Positions 1 through 19,044 of a stretch of 26,473 nt of DNA are shown in pieces; positions within the stretch are counted from its first letter, which is position 1; each line of letters starts with the position of its first letter. Below the pieces are notes generated by a model. It saw nothing but the letters and a program-made list of their open reading frames with translations. It had not been told where the DNA came from and did no database searches. The DNA comes from a virus. The DNA lies in IMG/VR virus record IMGVR_UViG_3300038954_000113, positions 1 to 26,473 of that record. One strand, written 5' to 3'. Both the position numbers and the translations under genes were made by a program.

Positions 1-1465
1 TATATTTTGCATGGATCGAAATAGTCAAGCCTGTAGTCCACTCTTTCAGCTTATTGTAGACAGCAGCACCGGCTTTGGCAATATCCACTTCATCGACAAC
101 AGCTAATATTGCACCAGCAAGCTCCCCATTATACCCCTGCTCAGAAGTCAAAGCTCTGTCTGCCTTGACAACACCTTTTGTCACTAGCAATTTTAGCGAT
201 TCATGGAATGAAGATTTTCCGCTGTTCTGAGGGCCGTACATGAATAAGTAAGGGAGTTTACAGAACGGCTGTTGAAACATGCAGGCTACCCAAGCCTTTA
301 GATAGTCTCCACCGTTCTTGATTCCCCAAGACTTGCACCAGTCTAGGGATTTGATGTACTCATCCAGATCAACTCCGCAATGATCCATCAGCTTGTCCCA
401 AGTAGGGTGTACTGGAGTCTCATCCTCAGACAAATCAACAGGAGAGTAGACAAATTGTGCTGCGTCTCTATTCCACACACGACCTCCAGGGTACTCTGGT
501 CGAAATGGATCTCGAATAACTTTCCAAGATTTGAATACGGCACTTCCAAGTATCGGGTCTGGCTTGGCGTACCCCTCTGAAACCAGGAACGATTTAATGT
601 TTTCTCGCGGGTGTGCTGTCCACTCTTTCTGGTCGTCGTAAACTACCCACGAATCAAACTTGCTGTCTGCTTTCAGCGCTCTGATTTTGTCGTCCAGATC
701 AGTCCAAACCTGCTCTTCTTCAATAATCTTATCAGAAGTTTCAGCAGTATTCTTTAGAAGCTTCTCCCATCCGCGAGTAGTCTTTACGAATTTGGGGAAA
801 TCACTTTGATTATCACCTCTTTCCTTTGGAATTCTCAACACAATCTTATCTTTTGCGTTAAGAGATAATGAAGGAGTCCTGCCAATTGCTTTCTCAGGTA
901 CTTTATCCTTCGCTTCTAACATCTTTAGAGCTTGAGATAAGTCCTCCACACTATCAAATAGATAGCCTTGCTTCTCTTCAGTGCCTTCAAATCCGCCAGC
1001 AGCCAAGCATATCTGCTTCAAAGTGGCCGGAAAGTTGTAGGTTGTATGAGTCCACTTACCTTGCTTATCCCACAGCGGATGCTCCTCTACCCCCTCACCA
1101 AAACGATAAACATCCCAAGCACCGTTTGGCCTTGGTCGCATGAAGCAATTTCCGATAAGTATGAAATCTTCCAGCACGAAGCAGTGAGTCTCTGGTACTG
1201 TACAACAGAACACTTCCTCACGTCCAGCAGGTTCGACACTTACAACTCTCCAGTAATGATGCTGACGATTCGTCGTGCTTGCCCATTGCTCTCGATGCGG
1301 AGTCAACAGGAAGAAATCTTTCGATAGGTCGGCAGCCTTCAAGATAATTGTGTACACTGGACTGTCAGGTTTGTAAGAGGTTGTCCCGGTGCGTGATTCA
1401 GTTACCTTGGAAGTTTCCACACCGAGAATGTGCACACTTGACGTACATGCTCGACGCTTATCTTG
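1..1465 (-). CDS. Primase-helicase, C-terminal part: intein C-terminus plus SF3 helicase (partial at window edge, -1 frame relative to the N-terminal part)
   Basis: This reading frame is open from 1465 to the left edge and continues the protein encoded at 1402-3126 after a -1 frame change near 1429. It first encodes the end of an intein (block F TVPETHCFVLEDF, then ILIGN followed by Cys at 1147). The C-extein begins CFMRPRPNGAWDVYRFG. Further on is a superfamily 3 helicase core. Walker A GPQNSGKSS lies near 209-236 and Walker B ILAVVDEVD near 90-116. They are followed by NKLKEWTTGLTISIHAKY, resembling the conserved region after Walker B in D5/P4-type phage helicases. The role would be hexameric unwinding at the fork, joined to the primase. 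There is no ATG with a Shine-Dalgarno site at the head of this frame, so it is best read as the broken or frameshifted rest of one gene. The true C-terminus lies outside the window. Confidence 0.85.
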
Positions 1466-2112
1466 TCAGTAGACCGAATGATACACGACCCCCTATCAGA
1501 CACGCAACCATCAGCAGCGAAGTATCCAGCCAGCCAACCGTACAAGTACGCCTTGTCATAGTGCAAAGGAACCAGTGACTTGAAGTGGTATGGAAGATTC
1601 CATACTTCCACTCCGCCGACAGATCGGTTGATTGGTCGTTGCGGGTGCTCAGCGAAATACTTCAACAGTTCGGCGTCTTTGGCACCAAACAAACTCAGTG
1701 AAGATGTGTTTCGCTCACCTCCATTAGTACCATCACCCCACACCAGCCCGTGTTGAATACCAACAACGCTTGGTGTATGATTGCACTGAGGCTTCGTCTG
1801 CACTAAGATGCGGCCTTTGGTCAAGTTCTTCGTCTCGACTTCCTCACGGTCACCGAAGTTTACTTTGGTCTTTCTATACCCATCACTTCGATACTTTGTG
1901 ACATACCAACGATGATCGCCAGTCGCTCGAATGTTCTTTCGTTGGTTCCGGTTCTCAATAGTTACATTAAATACTTCCTGCTCACCATACGACTTGAAAG
2001 GCGCGTTCACCCACTTGCCACGGGAGGTGATGATTTCTACATTATTTCCCGCTAATTCACCAATTGGTTTTACACCTTCTCTAGTGATTACCTTCGTATC
2101 AGCGCAAAGGCA
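1148..2112 (-). other. Intein with LAGLIDADG homing endonuclease domain, frameshifted
   Basis: The intein runs from Cys (codon 2112-2110, CLCADTKV, block A) to Asn (codon 1150-1148, ILIGN, block G), followed by Cys of the C-extein. Block B is seen as RATGDHRWYV with the TxxH pattern. Block F is TVPETHCFVLEDF. Two endonuclease motifs are visible: GIQHGLVWGDGT and LYGWLAGYFAADG. The span is 965 bp, one base short of 966 (322 codons), which matches the single frame break near 1429. The penultimate residue is Gly instead of the usual His, a variant tolerated in some inteins. Removing the intein joins GKPN to CFMRPRPNG, a continuous primase-helicase linker. The insertion point is between the primase and SF3 domains. 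Confidence 0.88.
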
Positions 2113-3126
2113 ATTCGGTTTACCTGGATCTGTATCAAGCGAGTTTGTATCAAACAAACCTCGCATTGGTGTGCCTCGCTCAGCCCACTCGTCAAACACT
2201 TGCTTAAGTCCAGTGGTGTGGCCCTGCCACAAGTAGTGGTCCTGCACCCACAAGGACGTATGACCAGTATTCTCTAAGTCCTCCAATATTTTCAGGTGCG
2301 TCTCATCAAGAGGGGTACGGGCATAAGCTTGAGTCATTTCATCAAGCTCATCGCCTTCGGTTGTACCATCGGGGGTCCATCCTTGGACCCTCACTTTGGA
2401 TCTGCCACCAGAGACAACTTCAATATGATCTCGCCAGTTCGGCGGAACAAGAGAGGATGGCAGAGGTTCTGTCGCCGGTTTAATTTGCTCAAAACCTCTG
2501 TTGTTGCTGTCGGCGTCAATATGATGTATCCACATCACACTGCCGAAGCAATCAACATCGGCATCTAAGTCCATCTTCATATACCTGCTAAGCAGGGGGA
2601 GAAGAGACCTAGCGATGGCTGAATGCTCATTATGATTATGGGTTTCTGGTGGGTCATCAAACCACACATAGATATGTCGGCCAGCGCCACGAGTTGATCG
2701 GTTAATTTCCAGCCAAGGGATGGTGAGCTTATCTAGCTCTTCGATCTTTTCTTGTGTGAGGGCGTTTGCAGCGTGGTGAAGAATTGAATCAAAGTCAAAA
2801 CCCACACCAATCGATCTGCGATTAACCCAATCCCACCACGTAGTGCCGATTGATTTCAGCCTATTCTCAATCACATATTTAATAGGCGGGTCACTATATG
2901 ATGGGTCAGACATCGCATTGTAAGGCCACCTCTGAGGGCCGAACACTTCCCCATCCTGTTCGTACATCTTACTGTCAGGGAGCGGGTTGCCCATCTTCTT
3001 ACATAATATCTGAGTCTCGAATCTTCGTGGATTCTCTCCCCATTTTCCAATTAGCTCCAGATTATTGTGCTGATGCAATAGCACATTCTCGTAATACTTT
3101 TTGTATGCCTCTGTTACAGTAGTCAT
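1402..3126 (-). CDS. Primase-helicase, N-terminal part: AEP-type primase domain plus intein N-terminal half
   Basis: I place the start at the ATG at 3126 because GGAGGAGG lies 2 bases upstream; an open extension to 3192 runs through the promoter and is not used. Numbered from this Met, the primase-polymerase-like (archaeo-eukaryotic primase) domain covers about residues 85-240. It shows GFDFDS (metal-binding DxD type, about 109-114), STRGAGRHIYVWF (about 144-156) and DCFGSVMWIHH (about 202-212). From Cys339 the protein turns into an intein (CLCADTKVITREG). The frame stops at 1402, inside the endonuclease domain, with residues unlike the family. The helicase half continues in the -1 frame (1-1465). 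The gene is transcribed leftward from the promoter at 3157-3188. Expected role: primer synthesis and fork unwinding as one polypeptide. As written, this frame alone would give a helicase-less product. Confidence 0.85.
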   Translation of the reverse strand: MTTVTEAYKKYYENVLLHQHNNLELIGKWGENPRRFETQILCKKMGNPLPDSKMYEQDGEVFGPQRWPYNAMSDPSYSDPPIKYVIENRLKSIGTTWWDWVNRRSIGVGFDFDSILHHAANALTQEKIEELDKLTIPWLEINRSTRGAGRHIYVWFDDPPETHNHNEHSAIARSLLPLLSRYMKMDLDADVDCFGSVMWIHHIDADSNNRGFEQIKPATEPLPSSLVPPNWRDHIEVVSGGRSKVRVQGWTPDGTTEGDELDEMTQAYARTPLDETHLKILEDLENTGHTSLWVQDHYLWQGHTTGLKQVFDEWAERGTPMRGLFDTNSLDTDPGKPNCLCADTKVITREGVKPIGELAGNNVEIITSRGKWVNAPFKSYGEQEVFNVTIENRNQRKNIRATGDHRWYVTKYRSDGYRKTKVNFGDREEVETKNLTKGRILVQTKPQCNHTPSVVGIQHGLVWGDGTNGGERNTSSLSLFGAKDAELLKYFAEHPQRPINRSVGGVEVWNLPYHFKSLVPLHYDKAYLYGWLAGYFAADGCVSDRGSCIIRSTDKISVEHVRQVCTFSVWKLPR

Positions 3127-3156
3127 ATCCTCCTCCATCTTGAAGTTGTCTATAGT

Positions 3157-3188
3157 ATTATACTGCACAAAACTCAGAAAAGTGTCAA
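3157..3188 (-). promoter_or_regulatory. Leftward promoter of the primase-helicase gene
   Basis: On the minus strand TTGACA (3188-3183) is followed by a perfect TATAAT (3162-3157). The spacer is 20 bp, longer than the 17-bp sigma70 optimum. The -10 and initiation region, from TGCAG through ATAGACAA (3167-3146), is identical over 22 bp to the rightward promoter near 3655-3676. Transcription would start about 20-25 bases before the Shine-Dalgarno site of the primase. Confidence 0.65.
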
Positions 3189-3354
3189 ACAATTTTGCAA
3201 ACCCCTCAAAGAAAGGGGCGGAAAGTGGTTTTCAAACTCCTGCCTGCAGAAATTTCCAGAAAAATATGTTTCGTCGTAACTCCTTACCCCGTAAGGACTT
3301 AGCTTGCCCTGCCACCAGGCGGAGGTATAAACTCAAACTCCGTCGTCATTATGA

Positions 3355-3687: not shown

Positions 3688-4620
3688 ATGAGCGACCAAA
3701 CAGAATTGAAGATCAGAGAGATCCAGAAGCCAAGACTAGCGTTGCGGCCAGTCCGTCGCCAAGCCGCTGAGTACGTGGAGTTGGTGAATTCGATTAGGAA
3801 AGACGGTGTCCTGCAACCGATTTTGGTTCGGCCAAAAGATGATGGTTACGAACTAGTAGATGGCTGGCACCGGCTTGAAGCTGGTAAAGAAGCTGGCTTG
3901 TCTATGATTCCTGTAGTAATAAAGGAGATGTCTGACAGGGAAGTTTTGGTGACTCAGGTAAAGTGCAACTCGATCCGACCTGTCACTAATAGATTTGAGT
4001 ACGCAAAACGCTTAAAACTATTGATGGAAGAGGGGTATACTCTCAACCAACTTTCGGTTTTGATCGACAAATCCCCTGAATGGATCAGAGACCAGTTGCA
4101 GCTTAACCGATTAGATGAGTCTCTACGGTCCTATATGACCAACAATGAGATCCCGATGAAGTCGGCTCTTGCACTGTCAAATCTTCCTGCAGAGCTACAG
4201 CACAAGTTTATTGATGATGCTCTGAAGATGCCAGCCAAAGAGTTCGAAGCCCGAGCAAAATCTGCTCTTCGAGACTTCAAGGCTTACATGATTGACAGGA
4301 GACAAGAGGAAATAAAGAGAGGTGGTTTGGAACCTCGTTTAAGAGGTCAAGCAGTTTTGCGAAAAGAAGCATTTGACTTAGAGCGAGGTCGTGATATAAT
4401 TGAAAGAGATGAGCTTGAGACAGCAGAGGAAGGCTGGGAAGCCTGCATGGCTTGGCTATTCCGATTGGACAAAGATGACATAGAATCTAGAAAGAAAGGA
4501 GAAGCATTAAAAGAGCGTGACAAAATAAGGTATAACAACGAAGAATGGCGTAAAGTGAATCAGAAAATTTTAGAAAAGTATTTAGAAAAGTATTCGGAGA
4601 AACCTAACAATGTCGAATAA
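3688..4620 (+). CDS. ParB/Srx-fold nuclease-like DNA-binding protein
   Basis: 310 residues; ATG chosen because GAGAGG lies 5 bases upstream. The N-terminal third has the ParB-type signature: DGVLQPILVRPKDDGYELVDGWHRLEAGKEAG. G-W-H-R replaces the common G-E-R-R/H-R box. A helix-turn-helix-like stretch follows (GYTLNQLSVLIDKSPEWIRD, about residues 113-132), which in ParB relatives recognises DNA. The C-terminal third is highly charged and helical (ALRDFKAYMIDRRQEEIKR onward), a possible oligomerisation or partner-binding region. No ParA partner is visible nearby. The gene is the first one downstream of the repeat-rich divergent region, so it may bind those repeats in replication or control; that is inference. 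Confidence 0.75.
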   Translation: MSDQTELKIREIQKPRLALRPVRRQAAEYVELVNSIRKDGVLQPILVRPKDDGYELVDGWHRLEAGKEAGLSMIPVVIKEMSDREVLVTQVKCNSIRPVTNRFEYAKRLKLLMEEGYTLNQLSVLIDKSPEWIRDQLQLNRLDESLRSYMTNNEIPMKSALALSNLPAELQHKFIDDALKMPAKEFEARAKSALRDFKAYMIDRRQEEIKRGGLEPRLRGQAVLRKEAFDLERGRDIIERDELETAEEGWEACMAWLFRLDKDDIESRKKGEALKERDKIRYNNEEWRKVNQKILEKYLEKYSEKPNNVE

Positions 4621-9838: not shown

Positions 9839-11704
9839 ATGAGCACGAAGAAGCGTCAAAAACAATTGAAAAAGCAAAAGCAGAGGAAAGCTTTACGCTA
9901 TAAGAAAGAGCCTTTAATAAAGCACCCTTCCAACCCTATGGAGAACATTCCAGAGATAAATTATAAAGGGTGGGTGGATGCAATTAAGAATAGGGACGAA
10001 AGCGTATGGGAAGCAATAATTGAATACTTGCTGTTCTTTGAACATCATCATTATAAAGCTTTTGGTGCTCAAGCAGTTAAGTCAATGACGGAGTTCGCTC
10101 AACTTGTATACACTGCTATGTTGGACGAAGGTTTCACGCCTAACAGGCAAATGGCGTTTAAGCTAATTCAGACTTCCCACTTATTTCATCATATTGTTGC
10201 GATCACCGGCTTCCGCTCAAATGATGGGGCATTGAAAGGATCGCTTCTTCAGGAAAATAATGTGGCTAAAGTATTGTTCTTGCAAAACCCTCGTTGCGAG
10301 TTGCAAGTGAAACAAGCCGATTTATTTGCTGTTGACCCGTTCTTAACATCTGTTTGGTTCAACACTTATATTCTTGGTATCAGTTCTCCAACCCGCCTGC
10401 TACAAGAAAACCTTTACAAGCATTTCCGAGACATGGATGAGCGTTGGATTCCTCCTCATCATGCATTGTCTGGTATTTACTTCTCTTGCACCTACCATTG
10501 CCCTGATCATGTCCGGCATGTGAAGTCAATCATGAATGCTCGAATCAAAGAGAAAGGACTACCTGAGTTTAATAACAATCCGTCACCCGATTCGATAGCC
10601 ATTGTAACGAACAAATGGCATCGCAACCACGCTGTCTATAAGTCGGCTTCTCCCTTAGTCGAGCAGCTTGTGGGTAAGTATAAACTCACCTTGGTGTGGA
10701 CAGCACCAAAGGATCGGATGCCAGACACAATAGTGACTGACTACTTTGACAAGGTAGTTAACTGCCACTTTGAACGAGATGGCAAGCTTATCATTCCAGA
10801 CGAGTTGAAGAACAACGATTTTCAGCTTGTCTACTTCCCAGACATCGGCATGACTGACGAATCAATCTGGTTGTCGAACGCTCGGATGGCTCCGATTCAA
10901 GCCGTTGGGTACGGTCATCCAGATACAACTGGTGACAACAACGAGATTGATTACTACATTTGTGGTCAAGTGGAGAAGGAAGCCGATCAAGCTTACTCGG
11001 AAACGCGGGTTTGCATCCCTGGTTTGGCTCAAGAGCCAGCTTGGCCTACAGCAGAACGGAAGCATAATTACATTGATGATGGAGTAGTGCGGGTTAATTG
11101 TGTTTGGGGGCCGGACAAGTATAACCACTCGCTTCTCATGCTTCTAAATCAAATTAACAAGTCTGTGTGGGGAGCCAAGCCCGACTCTAAGCACGAATTC
11201 CATCTGTTTGCTAGCCCTGGTATTAATAGGTACGCAGCCCTCCCATCGTTTTGTGAAGAGATTCGTAGGATGCTGCCGAATGCCGTGTTGCATTCTGAGC
11301 AAGAATATTATGACTACATGGAAAACGCAGAGCAACATGATTTTGCTCTTAACTCGTTCCCATTTGGATGTTACAATGTATTGGTGGAATCCCTTTATAT
11401 GGGACTTCCATTCATAACACTGGTGGGTAACAGGTTCTACAATCGTGCAGGTGCTTGGCTTAACGACCAAGTTGATATGGGGTGCAACAATTGCGATAAT
11501 CCGCAGGAATATGTCAACAAGTCGGCTCAACTTATCCTGTTCCCTGACAAACTTAAAGGGCAACGAGAGCACCTAGCCAGTATTGATCTGAAGGAAAAGC
11601 TATTCTCGTTGAAAGGAACACATTTTCTAGAAGCAATTGAGCATATTATCGCCAACCATCCTTTTGAAGAAACTAAACTTATTGGAGAAGAAGATGCTGA
11701 ATGA
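9839..11704 (+). CDS. GT41-family glycosyltransferase (HMW1C/OGT-like)
   Basis: 621 residues. After a very basic start (STKKRQKQLKKQKQRKALR) comes a helical region. Two GT-B lobes follow, with NARMAPIQAVGYGHPDTTGD and then EIDYYICG. His360 is in the GHPxTT box typical of HMW1C-type N-glycosyltransferases. VWGPDKYNHSLL is a likely nucleotide-phosphate-binding Lys segment. FALNSFPFGCYNVLVESLYM followed by GLPFITLVGNRFYNRAG matches the C-terminal donor-binding region of O-GlcNAc transferase-like enzymes. Such enzymes transfer a sugar from UDP-hexose to Asn or Ser/Thr of cytoplasmic proteins. No signal peptide is seen, so it should act in the cytoplasm, on phage or host proteins. The end overlaps the next gene. 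Confidence 0.85.
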   Translation: MSTKKRQKQLKKQKQRKALRYKKEPLIKHPSNPMENIPEINYKGWVDAIKNRDESVWEAIIEYLLFFEHHHYKAFGAQAVKSMTEFAQLVYTAMLDEGFTPNRQMAFKLIQTSHLFHHIVAITGFRSNDGALKGSLLQENNVAKVLFLQNPRCELQVKQADLFAVDPFLTSVWFNTYILGISSPTRLLQENLYKHFRDMDERWIPPHHALSGIYFSCTYHCPDHVRHVKSIMNARIKEKGLPEFNNNPSPDSIAIVTNKWHRNHAVYKSASPLVEQLVGKYKLTLVWTAPKDRMPDTIVTDYFDKVVNCHFERDGKLIIPDELKNNDFQLVYFPDIGMTDESIWLSNARMAPIQAVGYGHPDTTGDNNEIDYYICGQVEKEADQAYSETRVCIPGLAQEPAWPTAERKHNYIDDGVVRVNCVWGPDKYNHSLLMLLNQINKSVWGAKPDSKHEFHLFASPGINRYAALPSFCEEIRRMLPNAVLHSEQEYYDYMENAEQHDFALNSFPFGCYNVLVESLYMGLPFITLVGNRFYNRAGAWLNDQVDMGCNNCDNPQEYVNKSAQLILFPDKLKGQREHLASIDLKEKLFSLKGTHFLEAIEHIIANHPFEETKLIGEEDAE

Positions 11705-17876: not shown

Positions 17877-17962
17877 TGGAAATTGCCGCGCTGATTCTTG
17901 GGATGATTGTTGTTAAATTGCTTTCGATTCGGGAGAATAAAAATGACTTGACAGATGAATAA
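17876..17962 (+). CDS. Tiny membrane peptide
   Basis: 28 residues, MEIAALILGMIVVKLLSIRE followed by NKNDLTDE. One short hydrophobic span (about residues 3-17) and a polar tail. The TAATG junction with the coiled-coil gene supports coupled translation. Its last codons contain the -35 box of the promoter at 17948. Not recognised. Confidence 0.5.
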   Translation: MEIAALILGMIVVKLLSIRENKNDLTDE

Positions 17963-17976
17963 CTAAATAGTATAAT
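17948..17976 (+). promoter_or_regulatory. Consensus sigma70-type promoter of the tRNA region
   Basis: Exact TTGACA (17948-17953), 17-bp spacer, exact TATAAT (17971-17976). This is the best sigma70 match in the window. The transcript would run through the leader hairpins, the tRNA-Asn and the genes after it. Confidence 0.88.
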
Positions 17977-18088: not shown

Positions 18089-18160
18089 TGCGGAGTAGCT
18101 CAACGGTAGAGCGCTCGACTGTTAATCGAGTGGTTGCTGGTTCAAGTCCAGCCTCCGCAG
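18089..18160 (+). tRNA. tRNA-Asn (GTT anticodon)
   Basis: 72-base cloverleaf. Acceptor TGCGGAG/CTCCGCA with discriminator G, D-stem GCTC/GAGC, anticodon stem CTCGA/TCGAG with loop CTGTTAA (anticodon GTT), and T-arm GCTGG TTCAAGT CCAGC. All stems pair fully. CCA is not encoded, so it must be added by a nucleotidyltransferase. Confidence 0.95.
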
Positions 18161-18198
18161 CTAATTGTGTAGAAGTTTACAACATTTTGGAGATTATT

Positions 18199-18459: not shown

Positions 18460-18605
18460 GCTGTCATGGTGTAATGGAGAGGGGCGGAAGGCGACGGCCT
18501 TCCTAAACTGAACGGTCTGGCGTGTGTACGGCGTCTAAACACGTAAAGGATCGAGCACGCCTCGACGCTTTCGGGGTGGTCCAGGTTCAATTCCTGGTGA
18601 CAGCG
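18460..18605 (+). ncRNA. tRNA-like RNA with about 76-base insertion in the D-loop
   Basis: The two ends form a tRNA. Acceptor GCTGTCA (18460-18466) pairs with TGACAGC (18598-18604). D-arm TGGTGTAATGG (18467-18477) finds its partner CAC at 18556-18558. Anticodon-like stem CCTCG/CGGGG (18560-18576) has loop ACGCTTT, and the T-arm is CCAGG TTCAATT CCTGG. Between AATGG and AGCAC lie about 76 extra bases (18478-18553), with a perfect 7-bp hairpin GGAAGGC-GACG-GCCTTCC and a second stem CGTGT/ACACG around a 13-base loop. The anticodon loop is abnormal: it lacks T at position 33 and a purine at 37. Nominal anticodon GCT. It may be an interrupted, degenerate or repurposed tRNA. The insertion is too short for a group I intron. 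Confidence 0.6.
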
Positions 18606-18621: not shown

Positions 18622-19044
18622 ATGAATAAAGAACAGTTTGAAAGATTGCCTAAGTATGCTCAACAGCGAATCAAGGAGCTTGAGGGTGAGAATGCCTGGA
18701 TGCATTCAGCACTGGACTCGATGATAAATTCTCAGGTTGAAAGTAAGATTTGGACCGAGGAATTCGACAGGACTAATATAAGTGGGCCTCTTATTAAAAG
18801 ATTCTTCCATGCTGATAACTTGACAATTGAACACAAAGGAGTATGTTTAAGTATTGACGGTTTGCACAATGATGATGAAGATATTAGACTGTCTTGGTGC
18901 CCTGCTGGCGGCAGGTATTTGACAGGCACGATTGCTTTTGTGCCTATAGCTCACCAGCAGGCAAAACTATCTAACTTAGTATATGATGAGTATGAAATGA
19001 CAAGTCTTCAACGTAGTAAGGAACGGCATGTACCTAGCGATTGA
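18622..19044 (+). CDS. Hypothetical phage protein
   Basis: 140 residues with GGAG before the ATG. The N-terminus (MNKEQFERLPKYAQQRIKEL then EGENAWMHSAL) is an amphipathic helix of a type common at the start of small phage proteins. The middle is beta-rich (NLTIEHKGVCLSIDGLHNDD). No catalytic motif is visible. It overlaps the exonuclease gene by 17 bases. Confidence 0.7.
   Translation: MNKEQFERLPKYAQQRIKELEGENAWMHSALDSMINSQVESKIWTEEFDRTNISGPLIKRFFHADNLTIEHKGVCLSIDGLHNDDEDIRLSWCPAGGRYLTGTIAFVPIAHQQAKLSNLVYDEYEMTSLQRSKERHVPSD

Follow-up and report, generated by a model that had tools for sequence, protein, structure and literature searches.

The window, a 26-kb virus fragment (26,473 nt) from an uncultured phage, encodes a family A DNA polymerase, a ParB-like protein, a DNA ligase, and PhoH. 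A canonical tRNA-Asn(GTT) gene at positions 18089 to 18161 (plus strand) is recognized by ARAGORN and by Rfam with 74.1 bits. The element described here lies 300 nt downstream of this gene on the same strand and takes up the greater part of the 180 nt separating two small ORFs in a dense gene array. Upstream of both the tRNA-Asn and the element, a sigma-70-type promoter, TTGACA-17-TATAAT, is predicted at 17948 to 17976 (plus strand) from a consensus match only, with 12 of 12 consensus bases. The stretch from this promoter on to position 18700 is free of terminator-like sites, and the tRNA-Asn and the element are probably part of the same transcript. Elsewhere in the window, a 596-aa ORF (1402 to 3192, minus strand) without a Pfam match shows an intein-like start, CLCADTKVITREGVKPIGEL, inside an apparent replication protein.

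The element contains a complete tRNA body at 18460 to 18604 (plus strand) in the canonical register, as seen both in the sequence and in the tRNA-constrained fold. The 5' strand of the acceptor stem, GCTGTCA (18460 to 18466), forms seven of seven pairs with 18598 to 18604 and is followed by T8 and G9. The D-stem is built from GTGT (18469 to 18472) and GCAC (18555 to 18558), with one U-G pair, in agreement with the tRNA-model alignment and the folds. An alternative D-stem between GTGT and ACAC (18539 to 18542) was set aside, as the pairing with GCAC yields the canonical anticodon register. The D-loop starts with AATGG (18473 to 18477), in which sequence and model alignment place A14, A15, G18, and G19, and continues into a 76-base insertion between G19 and A21 (18478 to 18553; model alignment and folds). 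This brings the D-loop in the tRNA-model alignment to 82 nt, which is not a normal tRNA size. A21 is in place after the insert, and G26 separates the D-stem from the anticodon stem. The anticodon-like arm CCTCG-ACGCTTT-CGGGG (18560 to 18576) has five pairs between 18560-18564 and 18572-18576, one of them U-G, and a 7-nt loop. A variable region of 4 nt, TGGT, leads to the T-arm CCAGG-TTCAATT-CCTGG (18581 to 18597) with five of five pairs and a canonical T-loop. The 3' strand of the acceptor, TGACAGC, ends at 18604 and is followed by the discriminator G at 18605; CCA is not encoded at the 3' end. All 21 stem pairs are intact, and every core residue for tertiary contacts is retained: U8, A14, R15 (A15), G18, G19, A21, Y48 (U48), and the T-loop. 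The acceptor, D-, anticodon, and T-stems in cloverleaf register, together with these core residues, are those of a canonical tRNA. The original prediction had placed the coordinates and stems correctly, almost to the base, as judged by sequence, Rfam alignment, and fold.

The insert contains two predicted structures. A 7-bp hairpin, GGAAGGC-GACG-GCCTTCC (18486 to 18503, plus strand), is present in the free-energy minimum as well as in the tRNA-constrained fold. The second stem (18513 to 18553, plus strand), likewise predicted in both folds, consists of two parts: CGGTCT/GGATCG (18513-18518/18548-18553) encloses GCGTGT/ACACGT (18520-18525/18539-18544) around a 13-nt loop. The 7-bp hairpin and further stem anticipated for the insert are thus found in the sequence and in both folds. 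By itself, the insert is modestly more stable than its shuffles (z about -2). A near-motif, GGGCGGAAGG, resembling the Ro60-binding motif occurs within it. A kissing interaction between GGCGT of the second insert loop and ACGCT of the anticodon loop was considered and rejected, being no better than chance (P of 0.14 to 0.20). With 76 nt, the insert falls short of the size of a group I intron. A scan of the element stretch against Rfam gave no ribozyme or intron family match at an E value of <5, which leaves the earlier suggestion of self-cleavage within the insert without support.

The element was missed by ARAGORN and by the Rfam scan of the whole window. A local scan of a 186-nt stretch shows a match of the entire element to the Rfam tRNA model RF00005 with 33.2 bits (E = 1.2e-5; gathering score, 29). 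A perfect acceptor combined with a perfect T-arm over a length of 60 to 260 nt is expected about 0.8 times by chance in the window and 12 related loci together. Given these two stems, a D-stem and an anticodon arm in the canonical register, the latter defined as 5 bp with a 7-nt loop at the spacing of canonical tRNAs, were obtained in 0.15% of the simulations (P = 0.0015). Folding of the element as a whole is more favorable than that of its dinucleotide shuffles, with z values from -3.3 to -3.6. The free-energy minimum (-60.0 kcal/mol) is a different fold, and the tRNA-like fold (-54.1 kcal/mol) lies ∼6 kcal/mol above it. The observation of a real tRNA-like structure is confirmed.

In the anticodon loop, ACGCTTT, U33 is missing, and position 37, where canonical tRNAs have a purine, is occupied by U, a pyrimidine. 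The five-pair arm with a rule-breaking loop had been foreseen correctly. After removal of the insert, ARAGORN labels the body Ser-GCT, and this body is without the long variable arm expected of tRNA-Ser. Removal of the insert leaves no good decoder, because the loop is still ACGCTTT without U33 and without a purine at 37; an interrupted tRNA, one of the readings first offered for the locus, is disfavored on this ground. The same features, together with the missing variable arm, weaken an intron reading. Judged by its sequence, the element does not decode, the usable anticodon having been lost.

Relatives of the element were sought in contigs gathered via the polymerase, 12 at first and then 77. 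In this phage group, the polymerase often has a tRNA-Asn nearby. No similar insert was found in 4.1 Mb of fetched loci. The insert search of phage records returned just tRNA-like 3' parts and a chance 19-mer match, a pattern scan gave no relative with the same insert, and the neighbor proteins of the element led to no further relatives. L134, with 76% polymerase identity the closest contig that reaches past the tRNA-Asn, contains ordinary ORFs there, and the element is absent for 0.7 kb. Most matches of one pattern scan were discarded as tandem tRNAs or failures of the acceptor test. Among the phage records, fetched loci, and relatives searched, the insert has no ortholog and is a singleton. 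A 145-column model of the element applied to 42 relatives gave one better match, an 84-nt tRNA-like stretch at G037:38783-38866 (minus strand; in L431) with 47.9 bits. This stretch shows a duplicated D-arm-like segment, GTGTAAACAGCAC ... GTGTAAGCAGCAC, and lacks U33 when read in the model's register. It is a weak lead, because the model also scores the ordinary tRNA-Asn at 35.2 bits and ARAGORN reads the stretch as tRNA-Cys(gca). Homology of the element to RNAs of L305, L306, and L307 did not reach significance: short blocks are shared with L305 and L306 from the D-arm to the T-arm, and 14 to 27 of 300 shuffles do as well.

Several relatives carry RNAs of tRNA format with altered interiors. 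One set contains a stem, CTTGCCC-loop-GGGCCGAAG and TTATC, between the D-arm and an anticodon-like hairpin, and is referred to here as tRNA-format Y RNAs. These are found at L143:270-388 and 399-527, L177:1581-1704 and 4029-4174, L216:1157-1276, L237:3507-3628, L243:169-295 (minus strand), L247:2559-2681 (minus strand), L252:2307-2456 (minus strand), and L258:8121-8242. The alignment of these 10 sequences shows no variation in GCCGA and TTAT, and at 21 of the 27 consensus pairs both partners have changed with the pairing preserved. The full tRNA body is present; relatives do use it to carry other RNA domains. Several of the RNAs adjoin a phage Ro60/TROVE gene, and the L143 copies directly precede a Ro60-like ORF. 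The copies in L143 and L177 went unreported by ARAGORN. We take the GCCGAA/TTATC stem to be the Ro60-binding site, from what is known of Y RNAs and from stretches next to the L143 copies that look like canonical Y RNA. Ro60/TROVE is encoded in 5 of 28 related records, and the six strongest matches of a Y-RNA model in related records all fall within four of these five; the model was built partly from sequences of four of the same contigs, so that for those copies the match itself arises by construction, which does not apply to their location in Ro60-encoding records. Relatives without Ro60 hold other tRNA-format RNAs with odd interiors.

YrlA RNAs consist of a large stem formed by their own 5' and 3' ends and a tRNA-like domain (PMC8394870), and TROVE proteins with a tRNA-like partner are known in phages (PMC7824862). 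The tRNA-format Y RNAs can be regarded as a circular permutation of YrlA, because their ends lie at the acceptor and the putative Ro60 stem is closed by a loop. No report of a permuted Y RNA form was found in the literature searched, which lay outside the primary work on tRNA mimicry by bacterial Y RNAs. These RNAs are possibly more novel than the element itself. Like YrlA (RF02553), the tRNA-format Y RNAs (e.g., L143:270-388 and L177:4029-4174) share with the element the use of the tRNA acceptor, D-, and T-arms as the body of a graft, and they are of similar length (119 to 150 nt) and from the same phage group. Their graft is situated between the D-arm and the anticodon arm and includes the near-invariant GCCGAA and TTAT blocks, whereas that of the element sits in the D-loop and is without these blocks.

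Large D-loop inserts also occur in unrelated viral contigs. A scan of all viral contigs for D-loop inserts of 40 to 70 nt, with the acceptor not part of the pattern, includes among the matches listed D-loop-inserted tRNAs with six to seven of seven acceptor pairs and an excised body recognized as tRNA. These are of the Ile type in L338 near 7288 (minus strand) and L407 near 5829 (plus strand); of the Lys type in L372 near 1009 (plus strand), L388 near 9432 (plus strand), and L389 near 1172 (minus strand); of the Phe type in L398 near 7808 (plus strand); and of the Ser type in L402 near 3823 (minus strand). The inserts in these listed cases measure 44 to 61 nt, and at most of the listed loci ARAGORN finds no other tRNA. 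The Lys cases L372 and L388 have in common a long helix closing the insert, with differing base pairs. Large D-loop inserts are thus a recurrent feature of viral tRNA genes that ARAGORN overlooks. As in the element, the insert is located between G19 and the 3' strand of the D-stem. Several of these tRNAs keep U33 and a plausible anticodon, unlike the element, and the inserts are unrelated in sequence.

Among characterized RNAs, T4 species 1 RNA (rnaC, 139 nt) is an annotated small stable RNA from a tRNA region with a length similar to that of the element. Its 3' end comprises a T-arm and an acceptor-like stem of 7 bp; the element, too, is a candidate small RNA neighboring a tRNA with a tRNA-like 3' domain of T-arm and acceptor. 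A leader of 46 nt precedes the tRNA-like part of species 1 RNA, which is confined to the 93 nt at the 3' end, in contrast to the full cloverleaf with a D-loop insert of the element. Species 1 RNA has a weak Rfam likeness to tRNA-Sec (17.5 bits) and no sequence similarity to the element. tmRNA likewise combines tRNA-like ends with a large internal domain, but the element is far shorter and keeps the D-stem and anticodon arm; ARAGORN did not detect it as a tmRNA.

The element is somewhat more probably than not a tRNA-derived non-coding RNA in which the tRNA body would serve maturation and stability and the D-loop domain would be presented to a partner. It would be transcribed together with the tRNA-Asn from the promoter at 17948, excised by the host's RNase P and its enzymes for tRNA 3' processing, and then provided with CCA. 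The RNA may fold into a tRNA-like L whose elbow bears the 76-nt two-hairpin domain. The tRNA body could ensure maturation, protect against nucleases, and possibly be bound by proteins that handle tRNAs; the D-loop domain, together with the remodeled anticodon arm, may bind a partner, most likely a protein. The original interpretation is supported in part: a scaffold or new small RNA is the best of its options, given the intact core, the unusable anticodon loop, and the covarying grafted tRNA-format RNAs of relatives. The chief alternative, given that no ortholog of the insert was found, is a decaying phage tRNA gene that has lost its anticodon loop, taken up 76 bases in the D-loop, and is drifting without function. 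The nonconforming anticodon loop and the weak stability of the insert relative to shuffles agree with such decay, but uniform drift would be expected to strike the stems too, and three conserved anticodon-loop positions are changed while 0 of 21 stem pairs is broken and the tertiary-contact residues are all kept. Drift alone accounts poorly for this loss of three loop rules without any broken stem pair; a non-coding RNA is favored, and decay is an unlikely explanation, though one to be taken seriously. Two overlapping decayed tRNAs, raised with the original prediction, are disfavored, as one acceptor, D-stem, and anticodon arm fit a single canonical register.

The retention of the tRNA core beside an unusable anticodon would also suit a decoy that, during infection, sequesters the host's nucleases against tRNA or its tRNA-modifying enzymes, with the insert adding only bulk or protection. 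A decoy for anticodon nucleases should, however, retain the anticodon sequence that they read, and this reading is improbable. Of slight probability is a strongly diverged tRNA-format Y RNA whose insert would bind phage or host Ro60 (Rsr). The overall plan and length, the near-motif in the insert, and a 23.6-bit match to a model from the relatives' tRNA-format Y RNAs point in this direction, but that match rests on the acceptor and T-arm only, and graft site and sequence blocks differ as described. Moreover, the Ro60-binding motif (GNCGAA ... TTAT) in a stem was not found in the element, Rfam gives no YrlA match to it, and a TROVE gene is absent from the 26-kb fragment and from the contigs of the closest relatives. 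A working tRNA for AGC-type codons, with the insert removed by splicing or accommodated as a long D-loop, would account for the ARAGORN call of the excised body and has parallels in the viral tRNAs with D-loop inserts and better anticodon loops. It is nevertheless very unlikely given U at 37, the lack of U33 and of a long variable arm, and the absence of known intron or ribozyme families from the insert in Rfam.

More generally, and tentatively, phages may repeatedly make modular non-coding RNAs from tRNA genes by placing protein-binding grafts in the D-loop or at the junction of the D- and anticodon arms; the element would be a D-loop-grafted member and the tRNA-format Y RNAs the case with a known partner. 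As tRNA genes with large D-loop inserts escape ARAGORN and default Rfam scans, a set of phage small RNAs may go unrecorded. If these are stable RNAs, they would show new non-coding RNAs arising through domain grafting onto tRNAs and suggest a concrete way in which Y RNAs that mimic tRNAs could have arisen.

Other unusual tRNA-like or structured stretches were observed. L010:10250-10320 and L012:9960-10035, in the tRNA regions of close relatives, resemble structured RNAs and share a GTGGTGAA...TTTACC...AACAACACAGCC element. At L012:10344-10412 and 10450-10520, also in the tRNA region, a GAGG...CCTC stem unit is repeated in tandem. Rfam scans of L010 and of L003, which has the same tRNA layout as L012, gave no match for these structured stretches. 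L305:97-201 and L306:99-206 (both minus strand) are a homologous pair of tRNA-like RNAs in two related phages, with a short D-loop without GG and a longer stem containing CGAGCAC in place of the anticodon arm. L066:2383-2518 is tRNA-Gln-like and contains ∼60 extra anticodon-loop bases bounded by an 8-bp inverted repeat, AGAGTGTG/CACACTCT.
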